Assembly (NCBI GenBank): GCA_903871465.1
Contig: CAIQHB010000025.1
Coordinates: forward strand, 1 to 56,238
Source: an uncultured Methanosarcinales archaeon
GTDB taxonomy: Archaea > Halobacteriota > Methanosarcinia > Methanotrichales > Methanotrichaceae
DNA length: 56,238 nucleotides
Direction: 5' to 3'
The notes beneath the pieces are model-generated. The model ran no database searches, was not told where the DNA came from, and saw nothing but the letters and a program-made list of their open reading frames with translations. Below, piece by piece: positions 77 through 44,005 of this stretch; within the stretch, counting starts at the first letter, position 1; every line of letters starts with the position of its first letter. Made by a program: the position numbers and the translations under genes.

Positions 77-1315
77 TCATGCGGCGGCGCCTTGGATGCC
101 CCGTCTGCTTGCAGCGGGGTGCGCCGCCGCCGTTTCACTGTGTTTAAGTGTAGGATCGCCGCCGTCCTTAATCTCAACACCCGCAAGAGTGTTGCCAAAG
201 ATATCATTGTCTTCAATTGCACTCTTCCCATTTTTGTAAACTATTATTCCAGCACTTTTGCCATCGTGGATTTTATTGTGTTTAAGTGTAGGATCGCCGC
301 CGTCCTTAATCTCAACACCCGGACGAGCGTTGCCATAGATATCATTGTCTTCAATTACGCCTTGACCATTTTCATAAACTAATATTCCTGCATTTTTGCT
401 GTCGTGAATCAGGTTCGCAAAAAGTTTAGGATAAGCATTTCCGTGTACTGCAACACAAGCCAAACTCTCACTGGTTATATCGCAGCCAACTAGTTCAAGG
501 CATCCTTGACTGATGTCGACACCAAACCAATTCCCGCCTCCAGTTTGCCTAATCAAGAGGTTTGATATTTTACCCCTTACTGCCTTGAATAGAATGGCGT
601 CTTTTCCTGAAGCTCTGATCACGACGTCGCCTATCTCTCCATCTCCAACGATCTCAAGAGGCTTATCGATTACTAGCCCCTCATCATAGACACCCGGCCT
701 TATTAAAATTCGCGATCCAGGAGCTGCCGCAGCGATCGCGGTCTTTATCGTGGTATAGTCTCCGCGATGCATCTGATCGACTATTATATTTTTTAAACTT
801 CCATTAGGTGCCGTTTTTGAATTAGCCCCCGCAGGATCTTTTGGCTTAAGGCTTACTATCGCGTCTCTCAAACCTCTTGCTACATCGACAAAAGCCTCGT
901 CAGTGCTTCCCCATTTTTTGCTAATAACAGGCTCTGCATCAGTGGGGCGCGCCTGTAACTTCCCAAATGGCGCGCCTGCCCAGTCCACTGGCCGAAGGAT
1001 AATTGGGATCACACGGGCTTCTCCAGACTCATGCCTCTCCATGGCATGCATCATTTCGATGTCATAGCAATAATCTGAAGCCAGGAAATCAGCACTGATA
1101 AGCAATAAAATAATTTTGGCGGAATCGAGATGTTCATCGATTTGTCCTTTCCATTCCTCTCCGGCACCGATTTTTCGATCAAACCACGTGGAAATCAGCT
1201 TTTGGCGTTTCAGAATGCTCAAATGCTTTTCAAGTTCATCCCTAAGTAGCTCGTCCTTATGCGAATATGAGATGAATACTTCGATTCCCTCTGAATAGAT
1301 CTGCCCGTTGGTCAT
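77..1315 (-). CDS. TIR domain protein with right-handed beta-helix (NosD-like) repeats, truncated C-terminus
   Basis: Residues 11-155 form a TIR domain (EVFISYSHKDELL start, then LLISADFLASDYCYDIEM, where the E of DIEM is a candidate catalytic glutamate by analogy with NAD-cleaving TIRs). From about residue 175 to the end come beta-helix repeats of the NosD/pectate-lyase type, with alternating IxxNxIxGN-like turns. The frame is open to 1501, but the ATG at 1315 lies just before the TIR domain and is preferred. The last two repeats are 46 residues each and nearly identical; after the second DPTLKH the sequence turns into a low-complexity Ala/Arg tail, so the helix looks cut off. TIR domains in prokaryotes are mostly NADase effectors or signal makers in defence; a role here is inference. 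The SLATT gene lies directly upstream. Confidence 0.8.
   Translation of the reverse strand: MTNGQIYSEGIEVFISYSHKDELLRDELEKHLSILKRQKLISTWFDRKIGAGEEWKGQIDEHLDSAKIILLLISADFLASDYCYDIEMMHAMERHESGEARVIPIILRPVDWAGAPFGKLQARPTDAEPVISKKWGSTDEAFVDVARGLRDAIVSLKPKDPAGANSKTAPNGSLKNIIVDQMHRGDYTTIKTAIAAAAPGSRILIRPGVYDEGLVIDKPLEIVGDGEIGDVVIRASGKDAILFKAVRGKISNLLIRQTGGGNWFGVDISQGCLELVGCDITSESLACVAVHGNAYPKLFANLIHDSKNAGILVYENGQGVIEDNDIYGNARPGVEIKDGGDPTLKHNKIHDGKSAGIIVYKNGKSAIEDNDIFGNTLAGVEIKDGGDPTLKHSETAAAHPAASRRGIQGAAA
140..318. repeat. 138-bp direct repeat inside the beta-helix gene
   Basis: The stretch beginning at 140 (tgtttaagtgtaggatcgcc) recurs at 278, a period of 138 bases or 46 codons. The core of about 41 bases is identical and the flanks differ at a few sites. 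The period matches the encoded beta-helix repeat, so the gene grew or shrank by unequal recombination. Confidence 0.8.
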
Positions 1316-1443
1316 TGCAGCACCATTTCGTGACGTTTGCCGGTTCTTTCTTAGGCAGCGATTCTCGTTGACAATACTTAAAAGGTTTCCTTCATTGGTT
1401 TGAAAAAATGGATGATCTTCAAGTTCGCTGCAGTTCACTGCTT

Positions 1444-1935
1444 TCACGTCTTCCCTGCGCTCGGCTTTGCCTTCCCCGCCTGCTCCATCTCCGAGGTCCA
1501 CTTTGCGTGCTCGGTAGATACCAGCTCCTCGATCCTCTCCGCCAGCAATGCCGCAGGATTCTCTGCATTCAGGTAAGGTCCGGCCACGGCATACCAGAGA
1601 TATTTCTCGTGCTTCAGAGCTTCTGCAGTAGATCGATAAGAGATCCAGTTGCTCTGGAACTGGTAGATGCTCTGCAACGATTCGAGCACGACTACTATTA
1701 CGCCCAGTAACCCCGTTACAGCCGGATAGCTTCCCCAGCCTGCAAAGAACGGAACCAATGCAGCTGCAATAACTTCAGCCACTTTCAGCCACTTGAATCG
1801 ATCCTGATTCCATTTGCTGCTTCTGCTGTACCATTTGATCTGGTCATCCAGCCGGTCCAACGTTATATTTGCGACCAATTTCAAATCCCCCAGAAATGAA
1901 TCAGTTTCCCATAATGACGGTCGTGCCAATGGCAA
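1444..1935 (-). CDS. SLATT (DUF4231) family membrane protein
   Basis: This 163-residue protein has the layout of SLATT/DUF4231 proteins: an N-terminal helical part rich in W/Y/R (residues 28-50, LDDQIKWYSRSSKWNQDRF), two adjacent membrane helices (about 51-67 and 71-87), then a conserved amphipathic tail (SNWISYRSTAEALKHEKYLW and a following helix). SLATT proteins are predicted pore-formers in conflict systems linked to nucleotide signalling. The gene precedes the TIR/beta-helix gene on the same strand with about 130 bases between them, so the two may be cotranscribed. The start is uncertain: TTG at 1935 is used, and a second TTG at 1929 has better spacing to the AGGT upstream. Confidence 0.75.
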   Translation of the reverse strand: MPLARPSLWETDSFLGDLKLVANITLDRLDDQIKWYSRSSKWNQDRFKWLKVAEVIAAALVPFFAGWGSYPAVTGLLGVIVVVLESLQSIYQFQSNWISYRSTAEALKHEKYLWYAVAGPYLNAENPAALLAERIEELVSTEHAKWTSEMEQAGKAKPSAGKT

Positions 1936-10586: not shown

Positions 10587-11450
10587 TCACCTGAATTCCT
10601 CCTCTATCTGCCTCCACTTCTTGACGCCTATCAATTCATTGAATTCAGACCAGTTGACGCCCATCTCACCTACCTTTGCGAGATCCCCGTTTTTAAGCGC
10701 CACCAGGGCATTCAGCATCGCTTTTGCGGCAGGATAGACGCAGACCATGGGAATGGAAAGATACTTCACGCCCAGGTTTTCCAGATCGGTTAGGGCAAAC
10801 AATGGGGTTTTACCTCCCGGAATCAGGTTAAAAGCTAATGGTATTTGAATCTCCTTCACCAGTCTTTCTACTTCCTGCAAGGATTGCGGGCATTCGACAT
10901 AAACGTAATCCGCACCTGCATTCGCGTAGGCAATGCCGCGTTCGATGGTCTTCTCAAAGCCTTCCAGCGATCTGGCATCTGTTCTGGCGCCAATGACGAG
11001 GTCTGAGCCCTCCTCCTCTCTTCCCCTCACCACGGCTCGAATCTTCTGGACCATCTCTTCCCTGGAGATGATCGATTTGCCGCTCATGTGACCGCAGCGC
11101 TTGGGCCAGGTCTGGTCCTCGATCCTTATGCCGGCTGCATCAATCCAGATGTAATTTTTAACCGTCCAGTAGGCATTGAGGGCATTTCCATAGCCGGTAT
11201 CGGCATCTATATCGACAGGTATCGAGACGCTATTTATTATGTTTCTTGCTCTCTCCAGCAGCTCTCCAAAGCTTATCAGCCCGAGGTCAGGTTGCCCGAT
11301 CGCCGATGCGGAGATGGCATATCCGGATGTTCCCATCAGCTTGAAATCTGCCTTTTCAATCAAGAGGGCAGAGAGGGCATCATAGCCACACGGTCTCAGA
11401 GTCATACCCGGCTGCTCAAGCAGCTGCCTGAAAGATCTTGATTTGTTCAT
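10587..11450 (-). CDS. isocitrate lyase / PEP mutase family protein
   Basis: A 287-residue TIM-barrel enzyme of the isocitrate lyase/phosphoenolpyruvate mutase superfamily. Magnesium and substrate motifs are IDADTGYGN (near 80-89), IRIEDQTWPKRCGHMSGK (the KRCGH active-site loop near 117) and VIGARTDAR. Members split C-C bonds (2-methylisocitrate lyase, oxaloacetate decarboxylase) or make P-C bonds; the KRCGH loop favours a lyase over PEP mutase, but the substrate is unresolved. It is monocistronic, with repeated GTAGTAAC-like motifs upstream. Confidence 0.87.
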   Translation of the reverse strand: MNKSRSFRQLLEQPGMTLRPCGYDALSALLIEKADFKLMGTSGYAISASAIGQPDLGLISFGELLERARNIINSVSIPVDIDADTGYGNALNAYWTVKNYIWIDAAGIRIEDQTWPKRCGHMSGKSIISREEMVQKIRAVVRGREEEGSDLVIGARTDARSLEGFEKTIERGIAYANAGADYVYVECPQSLQEVERLVKEIQIPLAFNLIPGGKTPLFALTDLENLGVKYLSIPMVCVYPAAKAMLNALVALKNGDLAKVGEMGVNWSEFNELIGVKKWRQIEEEFR

Positions 11451-35738: not shown

Positions 35739-36005
35739 ATGAGGACAAGAAGGAGAACTAACGACTTAATTGCATCGCAGATTCTAAAAGTATGCGTGAA
35801 TGGTGCGAGCAAGACAAAGATTGTGTATCAAGCCAATCTGAATTCCGTAAGTGCAAAACCATATCTGGATAAGCTAATAAATAATGGATTCATGGAAGTT
35901 GTTCCCGAGGGCTCCAGAGTTGTTTATAAAACCACTCGGAAGGGACTGGAACTGAAGGAGAAATTTAGGGAGTTTCATAGTGAGATAGATAAGCTGTATA
36001 CATGA
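35739..36005 (+). CDS. archaeal winged-helix DNA-binding protein
   Basis: An 88-residue winged helix-turn-helix protein: N-terminal helix LIASQILKVCVNGASKTKI, recognition part LNSVSAKPYLDKLINNGFMEVVP, wing SRVVYKTTRKGLELKEKF. This is the archaeal family of small predicted repressors with a C-terminal helix. Its ATG overlaps a TGA of a six-codon ORF just before it. It precedes the radical SAM cluster on the same strand by about 250 bases and is a candidate regulator. Confidence 0.83.
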   Translation: MRTRRRTNDLIASQILKVCVNGASKTKIVYQANLNSVSAKPYLDKLINNGFMEVVPEGSRVVYKTTRKGLELKEKFREFHSEIDKLYT

Positions 36006-36153
36006 GTGTGCAGCCGTGGTATTGATGGCCCTACATCTTTTGCCAAACCTATTCTCATACACCCAAAATTTTAGCCCATTTAGATCAAAATGAATCTCGA
36101 TTTGAGGTTACCACACCATGCAGTAGATACGGATAGTAGCCTTCTAGAGAGGA

Positions 36154-36161
36154 TTTAAATA
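36154..36161 (+). promoter_or_regulatory. TATA box of the radical SAM cluster
   Basis: TTTAAATA preceded by the purine-rich GAGAGGA (a BRE-like element) lies 21-28 bases before the ATG of the 22-codon ORF at 36182, the spacing seen for leaderless archaeal transcripts. Confidence 0.55.
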
Positions 36162-36181
36162 GCTCAACCAGAACATATAAG

Positions 36182-36250
36182 ATGTTCAAGGAAGGCTTTT
36201 GGGATACCAGCACAAATTCCTTAGATCTGCTACATGAGGCTGGTGGATGA
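36182..36250 (+). CDS. 22-residue leaderless peptide ORF at the head of the radical SAM cluster
   Basis: The ORF starts at an ATG that coincides with the expected transcription start and reads MFKEGFWDTSTNSL, then DLLHEAGG, followed by TGA. It ends nine bases before the first possible ATG (36260) of the B12-binding radical SAM gene, and its last codons supply the GGTGG that would be that gene's Shine-Dalgarno. It could be a RiPP-like precursor, a leader peptide coupling translation, or chance; size prevents a firm call. Confidence 0.4.
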   Translation: MFKEGFWDTSTNSLDLLHEAGG

Positions 36251-36259
36251 TTAACTTGG

Positions 36260-37576
36260 ATGTGTATCAAAAAAGAAATTACGAACATGATCGAAGTTGT
36301 ACTGATAAATCCTCCCTCACTCTGTGTTGATGACGATAGACTGGAACCATCTCTGGGATTGCTCTATATAGCATCCATGGTGAGGCAAAGCAATTTCCAG
36401 GTTCTTATTTACGAGATGACGGGATGCAAAAATGAGACGGAGATCTCCAGGAAAATCAAAGAGATACCGAACGGAGATGTCTACGGTCTGTCTGTCCTTT
36501 GTACTAACTATTCCTATGCCAAACAATGCATTGAGCAGATCAGATCAAGGAACAGAAAATCAATGATAATATTGGGTGGACCAAATCCAACCGCACTTCC
36601 TGAATTTACACTTAATAACAGCAAATGCGATTGTGTCATTACAGGTGAAGGAGAGGATGCGTTTATTTTGGCTTTGAATGCCATTCAAAAGGGAGAACCA
36701 GTTCCTGCTATAATAAGAGGGGCTGGCAGAATTGATATAGATAGCTATCCCATGCCTGCATGGGACTTGGTAGACCTGGGAAGCTTCAATCGGGTATTTG
36801 ATGGTGAGAGAACCGTATCACTGATAAGTTCTCGTGGATGCAAATACCATTGCGCTCACTGCAATAGCACGGTCATGGGAGCGGGAAGCACACAGGTCCG
36901 ATATCGAAGAGCTGAGAATGTTGTGGAGGAGATGAAATATCTCCAGAAAACGGGAATCAACAAGTTCCGATTCAATGATGACAACTTCACTGGAAACCCC
37001 GACCTCCCTGCACTCCTTATCAAAATTAAGGAATTAAATGTCAGATATAGATCATTCGGACGAATTGAGGACCTGACCGAACGGAATTGCCGGCTGCTTG
37101 CAGAGAGTGGATGCAGACACATCTCTGTGGGTCTGGAATCCTTGAATCCTGACAACCTCAAGGCATTGGGAAAAGAGAACCAATCTGGTCTTGAGGCGAA
37201 TCATCTAAAGAACGCGAAAGAGAATGGAATTATCATAAGGGCCTTTTTTATTGTGGGCTTGCCTTATGATAACGATAAAACCATTAAAAAATACTTCGAA
37301 ATCTGCAAAGATCTTCCCTTCGACGAATATTCAGTCTATCCACTAATACCATATCCAGGCACCTCCATTGCTGAAACGCCACAGTATTTCGGATACGAGA
37401 TAGTCGATCGTGATTTCACCCATTACGTGCAGATTGGCCAGAACAGATCTACATCTTTTGCACTTAAGCACGAAAACTTCTCAGAAAATGATGTAAGACG
37501 CTGGCATAATTATGTCGATTCTCTCCTTAGCTCCTATAGAAAAGTCCGCCAGAATCAGAGTGAGATTGCCGTATAA
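36260..37576 (+). CDS. B12-binding domain radical SAM protein
   Basis: A 438-residue class B-type radical SAM enzyme. Residues 10-135 form a cobalamin-binding-like domain (VVLINPPSLCVDDDRLEPSLGLLYIASMVR, ILGGPNPTALPEF), and the radical SAM cluster is SSRGCKYHCAHCNST near residue 193, followed by a TIM-barrel part ending ISVGLESLN and AFFIVGLPYDN. Members do methylations or ring rearrangements on unactivated carbon. The ATG at 36287 (MIEVVLINPP) is the alternative start. It opens the cluster that continues to 44 kb. Confidence 0.9.
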   Translation: MCIKKEITNMIEVVLINPPSLCVDDDRLEPSLGLLYIASMVRQSNFQVLIYEMTGCKNETEISRKIKEIPNGDVYGLSVLCTNYSYAKQCIEQIRSRNRKSMIILGGPNPTALPEFTLNNSKCDCVITGEGEDAFILALNAIQKGEPVPAIIRGAGRIDIDSYPMPAWDLVDLGSFNRVFDGERTVSLISSRGCKYHCAHCNSTVMGAGSTQVRYRRAENVVEEMKYLQKTGINKFRFNDDNFTGNPDLPALLIKIKELNVRYRSFGRIEDLTERNCRLLAESGCRHISVGLESLNPDNLKALGKENQSGLEANHLKNAKENGIIIRAFFIVGLPYDNDKTIKKYFEICKDLPFDEYSVYPLIPYPGTSIAETPQYFGYEIVDRDFTHYVQIGQNRSTSFALKHENFSENDVRRWHNYVDSLLSSYRKVRQNQSEIAV

Positions 37577-37607
37577 GGGCCGTATAAAAAAGGCAGTTTG
37601 AAGAAGT

Positions 37608-38618
37608 ATGATGACTATGGGCCAATATGAATTCGAAGAATTGGGCTTCGCCTCACATGATGCACTCGAATTTCCCGCCTTTGTTAACCTGTGCGTAATT
37701 CGTGGAAGCTGTCCCTGCAGCTGCATTCACTGTCCGGTGGGATCTCTGTCGGATAAAGGTCGGGAGAAGACTTTTGGAAAAACAACAATATCCATGAAAT
37801 TATTCCAAAAAATAGTCGACGAAATGGCATCATTCCCATTATCTACTTTGAGGATTCATGGTGTAGGGGAACCTATTCTATGGAGATCCTTGCCCGAGGC
37901 GCTTCAATACGCCAGAAATAACAATGTACTTACATGGCTATTCACCTGCTTAGTCACAGGGGATTCGTCTCTGTTGATGAATTTGGCCCGGAACTGCAAC
38001 ATCATTGAGATCTCAATTAACAGCTGCGACCCAGAGGACTACAAGAAGACGAAAGGTATCGACGCTTTCCACGGAGTCGTGGATAATATCAAAGTGCTGA
38101 GGAGAACTATAGAACGAGAAGACCTGCCCACGCGGATGGTAGTTAGCCGCGTGCAAAGCGAAGACGACGAGTATGACTCTTCTTTTTTGAATTACTGGAA
38201 GAGCACAGGTCTTGTGAATGATGCCTTTATCAGAACCTACCACGATTATAACCACCTCATTCCCAGCCGGGTTGCAGCCAAGAAGAAGGCGGATCAATGC
38301 CTTGTTCATTGGGCCAGGTTTAACATCGATTGCAGTGGAAAAGCGATCGTCTGCTTCAATGAACTATTCAAGAGTGAGCTGAATCCTGATTTAATATTGG
38401 GAGATGTCAGATGCCAGAGGATCAGGGATATTTGGCGATGTAATAAGCTCAATGCCTTAAGAAGAGCGCAGATCCGGGCGGATTATTCTCAATTAGATTT
38501 TGCTGATCAACTTCCATGCTTAAATTGCACCTCATGTCAGCCATTAGGAGGCGAAAAGCCAACCAGTGAGACTCAAGTAAGGTTCTTTGCCGGAGAGGAC
38601 ACCCGTGGCGAAACATGA
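37608..38618 (+). CDS. radical SAM protein with C-terminal cysteine motif
   Basis: A 336-residue radical SAM protein. The cluster motif is unusual: GSCPCSCIHCPVG (C-x3-C-x2-C with an extra Cys inside), followed by RIHGVGEPILW in place of the usual GGEP. The C-terminal part has further Cys (CLVHWARFNIDCSGKAIVCFNE and CLNCTSC), which suggests an extra FeS (SPASM-like) site. It overlaps the next gene's start by 14 bases. Confidence 0.85.
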   Translation: MMTMGQYEFEELGFASHDALEFPAFVNLCVIRGSCPCSCIHCPVGSLSDKGREKTFGKTTISMKLFQKIVDEMASFPLSTLRIHGVGEPILWRSLPEALQYARNNNVLTWLFTCLVTGDSSLLMNLARNCNIIEISINSCDPEDYKKTKGIDAFHGVVDNIKVLRRTIEREDLPTRMVVSRVQSEDDEYDSSFLNYWKSTGLVNDAFIRTYHDYNHLIPSRVAAKKKADQCLVHWARFNIDCSGKAIVCFNELFKSELNPDLILGDVRCQRIRDIWRCNKLNALRRAQIRADYSQLDFADQLPCLNCTSCQPLGGEKPTSETQVRFFAGEDTRGET

Positions 38619-39591
38619 GCGATTCTACATCAATGTATTTAATGGGTGCAATCTGAATTGCCGCCATTGCTTCAACAATGAAGGCGCAACAAAGGGACCT
38701 CTCCTCACAACTCCGGAGATCCTGCGTCTTTCAGATGAAGCCATGGATTGCCTAGGAATAACTGAGATGCAGTTAACTGGTGGAGAACCCTTGCAGAGGC
38801 CGGATATCTTCCCGTTAATTAGTGCTTTACAGGAAAAAGGATTGAAGGTGATCCTTCAGACAAACGGTTTCTTCGACAGGGATACGGTTCGAAAAATCCA
38901 GGATCTTTCTCGCAATAATCTGAGCTTAATTATTTCCATGGACGGCTTCGAGACGAATGACTATTTCCGGGGCAGAGGAGTTACTGCCAGGACGGTTGCA
39001 AACATTGAAATGCTGTCCGAGTCGGTAGACATCCGGATCAATACCCTTCTCAGTTCCAGGATAGAGTGGGAGGAGGTGGAAAATTTGGCAAAATTAGCTG
39101 AGCGCCATTCAATTCAACTGGCCTTCAATCCCATTTGCCCATCAGGTCGAGCGGACTCAACTCTGCTGCTTCCTGCGCAGAAATATTTCCAGTGGATGTA
39201 CCGGCTGGAGGAGCTATCAGCAATGGGAATATCAATCAGAAAGTGCTTCAACGTGGTTGAGGGCCATTTAGTGGAAAACGAGGATTGCCCAGTCCGAAAA
39301 GGGGCTACCGTCCACATCGCTGCCGATGGCGCGGTCTATCCCTGCGGTTTTCTGGTCAATAAGCAGGCTTGTTTTCTAGGATCGGTGAGAGAAAGCTCAA
39401 TTCTCGATCTGATGAAAAGGATTCCGGACGATTGCCGATCCCTGCATCCTGATTGTCAGAAATGTGAATATCACATTAGGCGAGAATGCAAGGGGGGCTG
39501 CCCTGCCAGGATCCTGAACCTGAAGGGAAGATTCGGAGAGAAAGATATCTACTGCATGGCCGAACACCTGCCCAATCTATGGAACAGATGA
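38605..39591 (+). CDS. radical SAM/SPASM domain protein
   Basis: About 328 residues from the GTG at 38605, which has GGAGAGG in the right place; the upstream TTG at 38587 is less likely. The motif NGCNLNCRHCFN is followed by QLTGGEPLQRPD. The SPASM-like end has CPVRKGATVHIAADGAVYPC and CQKCEYHIRRECKGGCPAR. SPASM enzymes act on peptides or other large substrates (PqqE, heme d1 and RiPP pathways). It overlaps the stop of the gene before it and ends two bases before the next. Confidence 0.9.
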   Translation: MAKHERFYINVFNGCNLNCRHCFNNEGATKGPLLTTPEILRLSDEAMDCLGITEMQLTGGEPLQRPDIFPLISALQEKGLKVILQTNGFFDRDTVRKIQDLSRNNLSLIISMDGFETNDYFRGRGVTARTVANIEMLSESVDIRINTLLSSRIEWEEVENLAKLAERHSIQLAFNPICPSGRADSTLLLPAQKYFQWMYRLEELSAMGISIRKCFNVVEGHLVENEDCPVRKGATVHIAADGAVYPCGFLVNKQACFLGSVRESSILDLMKRIPDDCRSLHPDCQKCEYHIRRECKGGCPARILNLKGRFGEKDIYCMAEHLPNLWNR

Positions 39592-39592
39592 G

Positions 39593-40903
39593 ATGACTGC
39601 TCGGGAAATGCCCAGGTATAGGGCCAGAAAAGAGTGGAATGGCCTGGATCTTTTTGATAGAGATGAGGGAAGGTTGACATACATCAGCCTGGGTAGCACG
39701 CTGGCAGAGACTCTATTGAAATGGGGGATGAAGGATGCAGGAGGCTTGCGATATTCAGCAGCGCAGGGGGTTGCAAACGGAATAGGCGATATAGGCGACC
39801 CAGTCGATCTGGTTAAGTTGGGAAGATGGAATGTCGAGTCTTTGATCGATACACCCTATCCCAAGGTGCCGGAATATGCTTCCGCACCTCGCAGGATTTA
39901 CTGGGAGCTAACCCGGAGATGCAACCTGAATTGTAGATCCTGCTTCAATCGCCAGGGGGGCATTTCTGATGAGATGGCTCAAAGCACAATTCTGAAGCTT
40001 GCAAAGCAGCTATACTCTGCCGGCGTTTATGAGATCAGGTGCACCGGAGGCGAGCCCACGCAAAGGGATGACCTGTTCGAGATCATGGAAGGGCTTTATC
40101 AAATGGGCTTTTACATCTCTCTGGCGAGCAATGGTATCTACTCAGAAGAAACGCTGCAGAAATTGATGAAGTCGCCTGTGGACTGGATCATCCTTTCTAT
40201 TGATGGGGGTTGTGAAGATGCCAACGCCGAGATCCGCGGCCCGGGCAACTTTGCGCGGGTCGTTAGCACCCTTAAGGTGCTAAGAGAAAAAGGTTGCCGA
40301 ATAAGGATCAATACTCTGATCAGGAGAGGGCATTTCCGTTACCATCATCTGAAGGGCCTGGCAGAGATATGCGAAGAACACGGCGTAGAATCTTTGAACT
40401 GCATTCCATTGCGGCCAATGACCAACGATCCAACCACGAGGGATCTCCAGCTAACTCCAGCGGAGTTTAAGGAATTCATCATGGGCTTGAAGCAACTTAA
40501 GCAGGAATACAACATTAAGTTCGTCACCACACTGGATCTGGAGCTTACATCCGAGCAAGATAGGATTTACCTGAAGGACCGCTCCTGTGCCGCGGGCAGG
40601 GAAGGGGCGGTGATCTCCCCTCAGGGAGATATCTATGGATGCTCCTACTCTCCTGCATCCGATCCTGATGCGGTTGTTGAGATTAGGCAGAGGTATGTAG
40701 CCGGGAACCTGCTCGAGGAGGATTTTCTGACCGTATGGAATGACAGCTCCAGATGGGCTATCTACCGGGACCTAGAAATATATAAGAATGCGAAATGCAA
40801 GACATGTGATTATTACTTGCGGAGAAGATGTATAGGCAACTGCCCGATAATGAAGGAGGATCCGGGTGCGTTTGATCCCTACTGCTACTTGCATCTAATT
40901 TAA
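39593..40903 (+). CDS. radical SAM/SPASM protein with an N-terminal extra domain
   Basis: A 436-residue protein. The first 100 residues (YRARKEWNGLDLFDRDEGRL, TLAETLLKWG) look like a PqqD-like substrate-recognition module, which would favour a peptide substrate, but the match is weak. The radical SAM motif is TRRCNLNCRSCFNRQ with RCTGGEPTQRDD, and the SPASM-like end is CAAGREGAVISPQGDIYGCSYS with CKTCDYYLRRRCIGNCP. It is a paralogue of the preceding gene. Confidence 0.9.
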   Translation: MTAREMPRYRARKEWNGLDLFDRDEGRLTYISLGSTLAETLLKWGMKDAGGLRYSAAQGVANGIGDIGDPVDLVKLGRWNVESLIDTPYPKVPEYASAPRRIYWELTRRCNLNCRSCFNRQGGISDEMAQSTILKLAKQLYSAGVYEIRCTGGEPTQRDDLFEIMEGLYQMGFYISLASNGIYSEETLQKLMKSPVDWIILSIDGGCEDANAEIRGPGNFARVVSTLKVLREKGCRIRINTLIRRGHFRYHHLKGLAEICEEHGVESLNCIPLRPMTNDPTTRDLQLTPAEFKEFIMGLKQLKQEYNIKFVTTLDLELTSEQDRIYLKDRSCAAGREGAVISPQGDIYGCSYSPASDPDAVVEIRQRYVAGNLLEEDFLTVWNDSSRWAIYRDLEIYKNAKCKTCDYYLRRRCIGNCPIMKEDPGAFDPYCYLHLI

Positions 40904-40956
40904 AATTCTGGATAGAGAACTCAAGCAGAACAGAATCAAATTCAATGAGGAGATTT

Positions 40957-41799
40957 ATGGATATCAAATCGGTCTTGGTGGATAAATGGGATAGAATAAT
41001 GGTTTCATATACGATAATCTTAGCATTTCTTTTTGTCATATTAAAATTTTACTCATTAGAAATTGACTATATGATGCCATTAGCTCTTCTGGTCTTAACA
41101 CCAATACCTTGGGCGATTGGTAAAGTCCAACACCAAACAGAGAAGCTTGAGTCCTCGACAATTGAATTAAGAAAACTAATCAACCAGCCTGATATAAATA
41201 AGGTTCTAAAACCTTTTAATGACTATAGAAAGGAAATTAAAGAGAAAATAAGTGGCTCAGACAGAATTTGCCTTTTATCCAGGACCGGTCAGAAGTGGTG
41301 GGAAGAATACTTAATAGGCAATATTGAGAATAAAGAGGTTCGTTTGCTCGTTCTGGATCCAAGGGATGGAAAAGATTCCGCGTTTAAAATGCATTTCACT
41401 TCAGATCAACAAATAAATATGAATATTTCGGAAAAGGAAAAAGATATGAGCATTTCGGAAGAAGACAAGAAAGTTTCACTCTATCATAAAATTATAGATA
41501 CGGAACGCGGAAGATCGATTCAATTCCTGAATGAAATGGTGGAAATAGAGAAGATACAGAAGAACGTTCATCCAAAAGTCTTAAACTATCTCCCCGCGTG
41601 GAGCATCTTAATTCTTGAGAACTCAAAAAAGAAGAATGCGGGAAATGATGGATCTATTATCTATTGTGAATTAGCTCCCTACAAACTTACTCCATACAAC
41701 CGTCCCATGCTGAAGGTAACTGAAGATCATAATAAATGTTTCAAATTTTTTCGAAATGAGTTTGAGAGTCTCTGGAAAAGGGCAGAAGACTACCCTTAG
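40957..41799 (+). CDS. membrane-anchored protein with a PLD-like domain lacking HKD
   Basis: About 281 residues from the ATG at 40957, with GAGGAG upstream. Two membrane helices lie at about 15-35 and 40-58 (IILAFLFVILKFYSLEI, MPLALLVLTPIPWAIGKVQ), then a cytoplasmic part with a phosphatidyltransferase-like layout (SGSDRICLLSRTGQKWWEEYL, EVRLLVLDPRDGK), but no HKD motif is seen. It is markedly A+T-richer than its neighbours, so it may be a later insertion into the cluster. The function is unknown. Confidence 0.55.
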   Translation: MDIKSVLVDKWDRIMVSYTIILAFLFVILKFYSLEIDYMMPLALLVLTPIPWAIGKVQHQTEKLESSTIELRKLINQPDINKVLKPFNDYRKEIKEKISGSDRICLLSRTGQKWWEEYLIGNIENKEVRLLVLDPRDGKDSAFKMHFTSDQQINMNISEKEKDMSISEEDKKVSLYHKIIDTERGRSIQFLNEMVEIEKIQKNVHPKVLNYLPAWSILILENSKKKNAGNDGSIIYCELAPYKLTPYNRPMLKVTEDHNKCFKFFRNEFESLWKRAEDYP

Positions 41800-41819
41800 G
41801 TGCCACTAGTGATCAATTA

Positions 41820-42752
41820 ATGTTTCTTGATTCACAAAGGACGGATTTGCGAAATATATGCAAAGCCAGGGAAGTTATTGGGCGAGTGGGCATCGTCGAC
41901 GCTGAGTTAATCCGTTTCCTGGCTGGCGTTCGTGAGTCTGACAAAAGGCTTCTGATCTGGGTGATTGCAAGCATTTATCCCAGCATCCTCCCCATTTCCC
42001 ACATTGAGGAGTTTATATCATCAACTTCGATAGCGTATGTTATAGAAAACGGAAATTTGGCCGAAAAAAAAGCTTCTGCTTTGGGTAATGCTGCAGGGCG
42101 TGAACCTGCATTCGTCAAGACCGAGAATCATTATGCAGTTGCCCTTCCGGAGGAGAATCTGAGGCGATACTCGGAAGATCGGATAAAGAGAGGTTATTTG
42201 CAGATTCACAACGGGCAGGTTCCTCTTATCGTTAATCCTTCCAAGCTTATATCCTTAATGAAACTGGCGATTCTCTATCCTCATGGTCGTAACCACCCTC
42301 GAATAGGGCTTGTTTCAGGCAGCTTTGACTTAATTCATCTGGGCCATGTGAGACATATCAACAATGCCCGAAGGCTCTGTGATGTTTTGGTAGTAGCCAC
42401 CATGAGCACATCGTCTCTGAGGGCGCAAGAAAAGAATGCAAAAGGAGACCGTCCGATCTACAGCCAAGCCGACAGGATTACAGTGCTCTCTGCCTTGCGA
42501 TCGGTGGATCATGTAGTAGTATTTGATGAGCCGGACTGCAAGGAGGCAATAAGGGCGCTGCGTCCTCAAATATTTTTCAAAAACGTAAAGGATATGAACA
42601 GAAAAGTTGTGAAAGAAGAATGCGATCTTGTCAGGTCTTTTGGAGGTGAGGTTAGTGTCTCTTATGATAGTGCAGGATATTCCTCAACGGATCTGATTAA
42701 CCATGTACGAAATTGCGCAAAAATTAACTCCACTAGCATTACCAAAGATTAA
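41820..42752 (+). CDS. HxGH nucleotidyltransferase (RfaE/TagD-like) with an N-terminal extra domain
   Basis: A 310-residue protein. Residues 160-305 carry a nucleotidyltransferase core: IGLVSGSFDLIHLGHVRHI (the HxGH motif), then DRITVLSALRSVDHVVVFDE and the C-terminal SAGYSSTDLINH (the ST-II motif). This is the family of glycerol-3-phosphate cytidylyltransferase and heptose-phosphate adenylyltransferase, so it activates a phosphorylated sugar or polyol with ATP or CTP. The N-terminal 150 residues are of unknown type. The start at 41820 is uncertain. Confidence 0.8.
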   Translation: MFLDSQRTDLRNICKAREVIGRVGIVDAELIRFLAGVRESDKRLLIWVIASIYPSILPISHIEEFISSTSIAYVIENGNLAEKKASALGNAAGREPAFVKTENHYAVALPEENLRRYSEDRIKRGYLQIHNGQVPLIVNPSKLISLMKLAILYPHGRNHPRIGLVSGSFDLIHLGHVRHINNARRLCDVLVVATMSTSSLRAQEKNAKGDRPIYSQADRITVLSALRSVDHVVVFDEPDCKEAIRALRPQIFFKNVKDMNRKVVKEECDLVRSFGGEVSVSYDSAGYSSTDLINHVRNCAKINSTSITKD

Positions 42753-42856
42753 TCCATAAAATAGAAAATTGTAATTTCTCAACCAGTCAATTGTGAAAGG
42801 TATGAAGATCAGAGGACAGAAGATTGGATGAGTGCATGGATGGGTGATGCCAGCTT

Positions 42857-44005
42857 ATGACTTCAAGCATATTTGATATTGAATTCAGTCCGCATAAGTA
42901 TCTAGTGCACTGGGACCGGCTGAATGCTCTGGTCAGAGGCGAGTTTGTCTTCCCGGTTACTATGGAGCTTGATGTCTCCAGCGCCTGTAACCATAGATGC
43001 CTCTGGTGCGTCGATCCACCCGGATCTCATGAAGGAGTCTTCATGCCGGTGTCCACTGCCAGGAAAATCATGGAAGAGGCAAAGGCTCTGGGAGTCCTCA
43101 GCATAGTCTTTAAGGGTGGGGGAGAGAGCACGCTGCATCCCCGCTTCGACGAAATCCTCAAGATCGCCGACTCACTAGGCTTTGAGGTTGGCCTGATCAC
43201 TCACGGCGGCAACCTGGGTCCTGAACTGATCGACGCAGCTACAAAATGCTGCGATTATGTGAGGGTCTCCGTGGACGGGCCGACGCCGCAGTCCAGGAAG
43301 GACATTCATGGTGCGGACGACTTCTCCTCGATGATTGAAGGAGTGAAAAGAATGCTGGTCAGCAGAGGCACAAAGAGGCATCCTGTGATAGGCCTGACCT
43401 TCTGCCTGGATTATCAAAGGCGCAATCTGATAGGCAATTGTCTGGAATTGGGAGAAGCTCTCAAGCCCGATTATGTGCTTATCAGGCCACCATTTTGTGA
43501 AGAGGTCGGCTTTCCATCCCCACATACTCCCGGGGAAGCTGCCGCGCTGAGGAAGGAAATGAGGGAGATATGCGGGGGATATTCGGGAAGCTTGGCAGTT
43601 ATGGTTGGCAATTGGGTCGGTGACAAAGAACTTGAGAAAGATTTCATGAAGACTGAGCAAATTCTCGCGCGAAGAGATCTGAGAATCGGTGAGCATAAGT
43701 ACAACGGCATAGAGCACCGCACGCATCGTTGCCCTGCCTCTTCTCTTCTCTGTGTAGTTACGGCTACTGGAGAGGTCTACGGATGCTGCTGCCTGAGAGG
43801 CATCAAAGAGTTCACCTTCGGACGCATTGATTACGATATTAATAAAGATTTTAAATCTGTAATAAGCGGGTCGCAGCGTAACGCTGCGATTGAGATGATG
43901 AATCGGGCGGAATGTCTGAAGTACTGTACCCACCCGCTCAGCAAACCAAATGAGATCATGGAATACCTTTCCAAGCCAGAGAAATACCATTCATCGTTTA
44001 TTTGA
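42857..44005 (+). CDS. radical SAM protein with C-terminal cysteine motif
   Basis: A 382-residue radical SAM protein: motif DVSSACNHRCLWCVDPPGSH near residues 40-60, a modified GGEP (FKGGGESTLHPR), and a C-terminal set of Cys (CPASSLLCVVTATGEVYGCCCLRG, CLKYCTH) that is likely an extra FeS site. It is the last gene of the cluster, with about 105 bases before it. The substrate is unknown. Confidence 0.88.
   Translation: MTSSIFDIEFSPHKYLVHWDRLNALVRGEFVFPVTMELDVSSACNHRCLWCVDPPGSHEGVFMPVSTARKIMEEAKALGVLSIVFKGGGESTLHPRFDEILKIADSLGFEVGLITHGGNLGPELIDAATKCCDYVRVSVDGPTPQSRKDIHGADDFSSMIEGVKRMLVSRGTKRHPVIGLTFCLDYQRRNLIGNCLELGEALKPDYVLIRPPFCEEVGFPSPHTPGEAAALRKEMREICGGYSGSLAVMVGNWVGDKELEKDFMKTEQILARRDLRIGEHKYNGIEHRTHRCPASSLLCVVTATGEVYGCCCLRGIKEFTFGRIDYDINKDFKSVISGSQRNAAIEMMNRAECLKYCTHPLSKPNEIMEYLSKPEKYHSSFI

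Follow-up and report, generated by a model that had tools for sequence, protein, structure and literature searches.

A seven-gene operon with five radical SAM genes and an HldE/HldC-type nucleotidyltransferase gene in a probable Methanothrix genome: a candidate pathway to an activated sugar or polyol

Gene content of the operon

The window, meaning the whole stretch of DNA analysed here, is contig CAIQHB010000025.1 (contig 25; 56,238 nt) of an uncultured archaeon of the family Methanotrichaceae. The source genome is 3.13 Mb long and 99.6% complete, and is probably that of a Methanothrix. Seven co-directional genes on the plus strand of the window, at positions 36260–44005, form a predicted operon in the order rS1, rS2, rS3, rS4, TM6, NT7, and rS5. 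Five of them (rS1–rS5) code for radical S-adenosylmethionine (SAM) proteins, NT7 for a nucleotidyltransferase, and TM6 for a putative membrane protein. In the reading favoured here, to which we give an even chance, the operon was acquired laterally and its product is a sugar or polyol-phosphate that is activated with a nucleotide and modified by radical chemistry, probably destined for a glycan of the cell surface.

The reading frames of all seven genes are open, with a spacing of −32 to +104 bases between the genes. A TATA-like box (atttaaata, 36153–36161, plus strand), recognised in the sequence as a match to the consensus, precedes rS1 by about 100 bases and is a candidate promoter of the operon. 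No RNA elements were found within the operon in Rfam. An earlier note on this DNA, made from the sequence alone, had described five distinct radical SAM genes in a row on one strand, with an HxGH nucleotidyltransferase and a membrane protein among them. This was confirmed, as all are on the plus strand, TM6 and NT7 lie between rS4 and rS5, and the CX3CX2C motif is intact in each of the five radical SAM proteins. The whole genome has 43 Radical_SAM matches. With these placed at random among an assumed ~3,100 genes, about 3e-5 runs of seven genes with at least five radical SAM genes are expected per genome, so chance does not account for five such genes in a run of seven.

Radical SAM proteins

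Class membership was judged by the CX3CX2C motif together with a Radical_SAM domain, and both were found in all five proteins. The score of rS2 against PF04055 is 25.8, under the cut-off of 29.5, yet its motif and a SPASM domain are present. No operon protein reached an NCBIfam equivalog cut-off, and all named families scored far below theirs; the earlier view of a biosynthetic cluster without a named pathway agrees with this, as the curated scores of the specific radical SAM families were reached by none.

Protein rS1 (36260–37576; PF02310 2.3e-17, 63 bits; PF04055 1.5e-21) is assigned by its N-terminal B12-binding domain to the B12-dependent radical SAM class, as had been proposed, and is predicted to use cobalamin. 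Its true start is likely at 36290 (MIEVVLINPP). AprD4 is the best solved relative (6fd2, E 3e-15). Protein rS2 (37608–38618; PF13186 3.7e-6) has the CPCSCIHC and GVGEP motifs reported earlier, but the first is not odd: apart from one additional Cys it is a normal CX3CX2C. Its sole match among solved structures is a weak one to BtrN (E 0.007), and TIGR04321 (spiroSPASM) gave 51 bits against a cut-off of 250. The first 32 bases of rS3 (38587–39591; PF04055 2.2e-19, PF13186 1.4e-4) are shared with the end of rS2, and the protein has a CX2CX7CX3C pattern close to its C-terminus. Protein rS4 (39593–40903; PF04055 1e-23, PF13186 2.5e-8) has an N-terminal extension of ~95 residues. Both rS3 and rS4 combine Radical_SAM and SPASM domains and are 26% identical to each other, which bears out their description as two paralogues with SPASM-like ends. 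The best solved relative of rS4 is PqqE (6c8v, 4e-16), followed by BlsE. Protein rS5 (42857–44005; PF04055 1.2e-15) has GGGES, in line with the GGGE noted earlier in place of GGEP, and a Cys-containing tail that scores for SPASM only below the cut-off.

Two more specific identities were considered and rejected. A defence function of rS4 as a prokaryotic viperin (pVip) did not hold, with 75 bits against the NCBIfam viperin cut-off of 180 and only partial PADLOC matches. As a maturase of tungsten oxidoreductases (TIGR04317), rS5 scored 70.5 bits against a cut-off of 380.

Sugar-acting radical SAM enzymes are known mainly from antibiotic pathways, and the substrates of AprD4 and BtrN are aminoglycoside sugars or cyclitols. 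On structural grounds, sugar chemistry is thus suggested by AprD4 for rS1, in part by BlsE for rS4, and weakly by BtrN for rS2. AprD4, BtrN, and BlsE are the best or near-best solved relatives of these proteins; all are distant, and no activity can be transferred from them. We know of no sugar-acting radical SAM enzyme that is encoded alongside four other radical SAM genes and an HldE-type transferase.

The architecture of rS3 and rS4 is shared with SPASM maturases (PqqE, MftC, AhbD, TIGR04133), and the operon could instead make a ribosomally synthesised and post-translationally modified peptide (RiPP) or a peptide-derived cofactor. Here rS3 and rS4 would modify a precursor peptide, rS1 would methylate it, and NT7 would activate the product or be incidental. 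This is consistent with the match of rS4 to PqqE, with mycofactocin, WgkB, and GeoRSP maturases among its profile matches, and with SPASM matches in three of the five radical SAM proteins; SPASM, however, occurs in non-peptide enzymes too. Both rS3 and rS4 score far below the curated cut-offs of the maturase families. The intergenic spaces contain only open reading frames (ORFs) of about 20–35 aa without features of a precursor, though one could be encoded at a distance. Neither a peptidase nor an exporter is encoded within the operon. The PqqD-like front proposed for rS4 was not confirmed: no PqqD or RiPP recognition element (RRE) match appeared in Pfam even at E ≤ 10. A single-sequence model of the extension does give the order strand-strand-helix-helix-helix, but at low confidence (predicted local distance difference test, pLDDT, 40). 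To our knowledge, no RiPP pathway uses an HldE-type transferase, which also counts against a peptide product. A peptide pathway is regarded as unlikely, though it is the strongest of the alternatives.

Nucleotidyltransferase NT7

NT7 (41820–42752) is an HldE/HldC-type nucleotidyltransferase (CTP_transf_like). Its transferase domain at residues ~160–297 matches heptose-1-phosphate adenylyltransferase TIGR02199 with 108 bits (E 2.6e-31), below the cut-off of 181.5, and NT7 appears to be a relative of this family rather than a certified member. The N-terminal 155 residues, an addition relative to HldE/HldC, gave no family matches. Among solved structures, NT7 is related to BpHldC (PDB 5x9q, E 4e-15), a heptose-1-phosphate adenylyltransferase whose active-site Lys69 is reported to contact a nucleotide phosphate (PMC7993394). 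The catalytic signature common to HldE/HldC (RfaE domain II) is kept in NT7: GSFD at 167–170, HLGH at 173–176, K205 aligned with Lys69 of BpHldC, and SSTDLI. ATP is the favoured nucleotide donor, judged by family. In a FastTree tree of 37 domains, NT7 has a long branch inside the family, grouped with bacterial RfaE2/HldE at support 0.998, and is separated from archaeal RibL-type sequences with support 1.0. An identity as RibL-type FAD synthetase or cytidylyltransferase was rejected on this split, and a separate RibL-type gene is present in the genome. Unlike the heptose family, NT7 has FKNVKDM in place of VKGGDY, so its substrate may differ from that of the family.

In fosfomycin biosynthesis, the substrate of a B12-dependent radical SAM methyltransferase is first activated by a cytidylyltransferase. 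A soluble small-molecule natural product made through a nucleotide-bound intermediate, on the pattern of that CMP-activated pathway, could accordingly be proposed, as an HxGH transferase and a B12-dependent radical SAM protein share one operon here. NT7 also has a weak match (E 0.002) to the transferase domain of 5x3d, a protein named as phosphoenolpyruvate (PEP) phosphomutase, which we take to be Fom1. The heptose family, however, gives NT7 far higher scores than cytidylyltransferases do, and no PEP mutase is encoded in the operon; a product of this kind is improbable. A gene of the ICL/PEPM family in the window (10587–11450, minus strand) was tried as a phosphonate PEP mutase and rejected, as it has the lyase-type KRCGH motif and lies 25 kb away.

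Membrane protein TM6

TM6 (40945–41799) is an orphan. Two hydrophobic segments at its N-terminus precede a domain of cytosolic appearance. The protein had no significant match in Pfam, NCBIfam, PADLOC, PHROG, or PDB and no homologue in 393 genomes of the phylum or in the plasmid set. Its probable anchoring in the membrane fits a pathway for the head group of an unusual archaeal lipid or a polyprenol-linked glycolipid, and TIGR04072, the best NCBIfam profile of rS1, is a lipid-associated B12-dependent radical SAM family. This profile gave 100 bits, though, far under its cut-off of 360, the relatives of rS1 are mostly in glycan loci, and neither a CDP-alcohol phosphotransferase nor a prenyl enzyme was found in the operon. 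The probability of a lipid pathway is low.

Origin of the operon

No orthologues were found for rS4 and NT7 in 150 relatives, for rS3 in 165 genomes, or for rS1, rS2, and rS5 in 238 genomes of the class; other matches of the operon proteins in these relatives are distant, about 20–37% identical. A full orthologue of rS5 was absent from 393 genomes of the phylum. The only orthologous sequence there is a C-terminal remnant of 67 residues (54% identity) in Candidatus Argoarchaeum ethanivorans (L109:11804-12004), an indication that a copy of the system was lost or moved. Short ORFs downstream of the remnant resemble transposase fragments when read by eye. On plasmids, the relatives revealed by tblastn are all distant, with no orthologue for any of the seven; scans of a viral collection gave no match. 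In the public genome set, a short pattern from NT7 found no relatives, and a pattern from the rS5-tail alignment matched Ca. Argoarchaeum alone; bacterial chromosomes were covered by these two short-pattern searches only.

The complete genome G004, of the same genus, lacks the operon. Its flanks at this site (HAD, CxxCxxCC, a coiled-coil gene, and HTH_45 on one side, L15e on the other) enclose one unrelated gene. The G+C content of the operon genes is 0.36–0.51, versus about 0.5–0.58 in most neighbours. Codon use is most atypical in TM6 and NT7 (z −2.5 and −2.8) and near background in rS4 and rS5. Given the absence from relatives, the G004 site, and the deviating G+C content and codons, the operon is regarded as a local insertion or replacement, and judging by these sequence features it was most likely acquired laterally. 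No convincing insertion repeats or tRNA were found at its junctions. Gene order upstream of L15e varies among species. The single gene at the G004 site codes for 280 residues (L112:8068-8910); it also occurs upstream of L15e in several congeners and is absent from the window.

A winged-helix gene (HTH_45/Sso10a, 35739–36005, plus strand) does lie upstream of the operon, as noted earlier, but its membership in the cluster is improbable. The operon-free site of G004 has the same gene beside L15e, so it is probably native and not a regulator of the cluster.

Relatives in other genomes

Full-length relatives of rS5 (24–25% identity) were found in two loci presumed to be of Methanoperedens type, in genomes G148 and G149, and in two plasmid loci. 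Both Methanoperedens-type loci have genes for transaldolase/FSA, a HAD phosphatase, HldE (nucleotidyltransferase-PfkB), a second HldE-type nucleotidyltransferase, and SIS. These loci (L110:6403-16648 and L111:5135-14618) hold a nearly complete heptose-like pathway, with two or three radical SAM genes and a pair of HldE-type transferases, and may be seen as a better-equipped relative of the operon. On plasmid pDCAR1 of Solidesulfovibrio carbinolicus, the rS5 relative is accompanied by PfkB/HldE-like, SIS, pseF, and methyltransferase genes and two adjacent B12-radical-SAM-like genes; in a plasmid locus of Azospirillum oryzae by PfkB/HldE-like, SIS, short-chain dehydrogenase/reductase, and B12-radical-SAM-like genes. 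In G148, Solidesulfovibrio, and Azospirillum, the B12-radical-SAM-like gene is adjacent to the rS5 relative or within about 4 kb of it, and these three loci bring together an rS5-like radical SAM, a B12-dependent radical SAM, an HldE-type transferase, and SIS. A plasmid relative in Streptomyces vietnamensis (23%) is near UDP-galactopyranose mutase, WbqC, and DegT genes.

Relatives of rS2 adjoin NeuB, DegT, WbqC, and glycosyltransferase genes. The best relatives of rS1 in the class are 28–32% identical, and four of their five top loci are surface-glycan loci (with glycosyltransferase or NeuB). Among the plasmid matches listed for rS1, the one with the best E-value is on pDCAR1, roughly 12 kb away from the relative of rS5. 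In the archaeal loci, names such as NeuB and glycosyltransferase were assigned to the genes by eye from their translations, apart from the genes identified by a scan.

Compared with the operon, the G148, G149, and pDCAR1 loci likewise combine an rS5-like radical SAM with an HldE-type transferase, and in G148 and pDCAR1 also with a B12-dependent radical SAM. They differ in having SIS, PfkB, HAD, and transketolase, none of which is in the operon, and in having two or three radical SAM genes beside the transferase instead of five. The earlier note had counted scattering of the genes in relatives against its reading, and this is partly the case. Distant homologues are spread over many loci, but relatives of rS1, rS2, rS5, and NT7 are mostly in surface-glycan loci, and three loci combine the rS5, rS1, and NT7 types.

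The recurring combination also bears on the proposal that unrelated genes, partly decaying and with no common pathway, were gathered by lateral transfer. G+C content at third codon positions and codon usage do vary along the operon, and elsewhere only the truncated rS5 remnant was found. Against this stand the seven open frames, the five intact Fe-S motifs, the tight same-strand spacing, and the three other loci with an rS5-like, B12-radical-SAM, and HldE-type combination. A chance assembly is the least probable explanation and very unlikely.

Possible product and pathway

Among the products listed earlier (modified peptide, cofactor, lipid, or glycan), the sugar or polyol side is favoured by the type of NT7 and by the loci of distant relatives of the operon proteins, while the peptide lost ground for want of a precursor and a detectable RRE. 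As the distant relatives sit in clusters for cell-surface sugars, an unusual activated sugar is the probable product. All seven genes would then serve one pathway, in which NT7 would couple a nucleotide to the phosphate of a sugar or polyol. Tailoring of the carbon skeleton by the radical SAM enzymes would come before or after this activation. By family only, rS1 could be expected to perform C-methylation, deoxygenation, or epimerisation, and rS2–rS5 dehydrogenation, decarboxylation, deamination, or C-C chemistry with auxiliary Fe-S clusters. TM6 may anchor the complex or an acceptor at the membrane, with the surface as the presumed destination.

Several findings weigh against this reading. 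The best solved match of rS4 is a peptide enzyme, and rS3 and rS4 have relatives at scattered sites, with housekeeping genes as frequent neighbours and no association with glycans. No glycosyltransferase, epimerase, kinase, or phosphatase is encoded within the operon, and no complete homologous operon tying the seven genes together was found in the searches made. The relatives in glycan loci are only about 22–32% identical, so their function cannot be transferred. Unlike in ADP-heptose systems, GmhA and a heptose kinase were not recognised in the host genome: SIS_2 (GmhA) was not detected, and PfkB matches are generic only (67 bits against the heptose-kinase cut-off of 345). The canonical ADP-heptose route is thus not recognisable in the genome, and heptose is rather unlikely as the substrate of NT7. 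A more specific proposal is tentative and more doubtful than not: a methanogen would build a nucleotide-activated sugar or polyol not described before, with a phosphate other than that of heptose as starting material and with several radical SAM enzymes that rebuild the skeleton one after another.

In the literature searched, no paper uniting radical SAM enzymes with ADP-heptose clusters was found, and the five papers that name both Methanothrix and radical SAM concern other subjects, judged by title. If the operon and its relatives in surface-glycan loci act as their contexts suggest, then the glycobiology of anaerobe cell surfaces would have a general branch, so far little explored, in which nucleotide-activated sugars undergo radical chemistry, and the operon would be a compact, expressible seven-gene example of it.

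Other genes in the window

Far from the operon, the gene at 77–1935 (minus strand) codes for a TIR-like N-terminal domain joined to right-handed beta-helix-like repeats, as read by eye. A gene for a small membrane protein adjoins it, and the two are possibly a defence or signalling pair.

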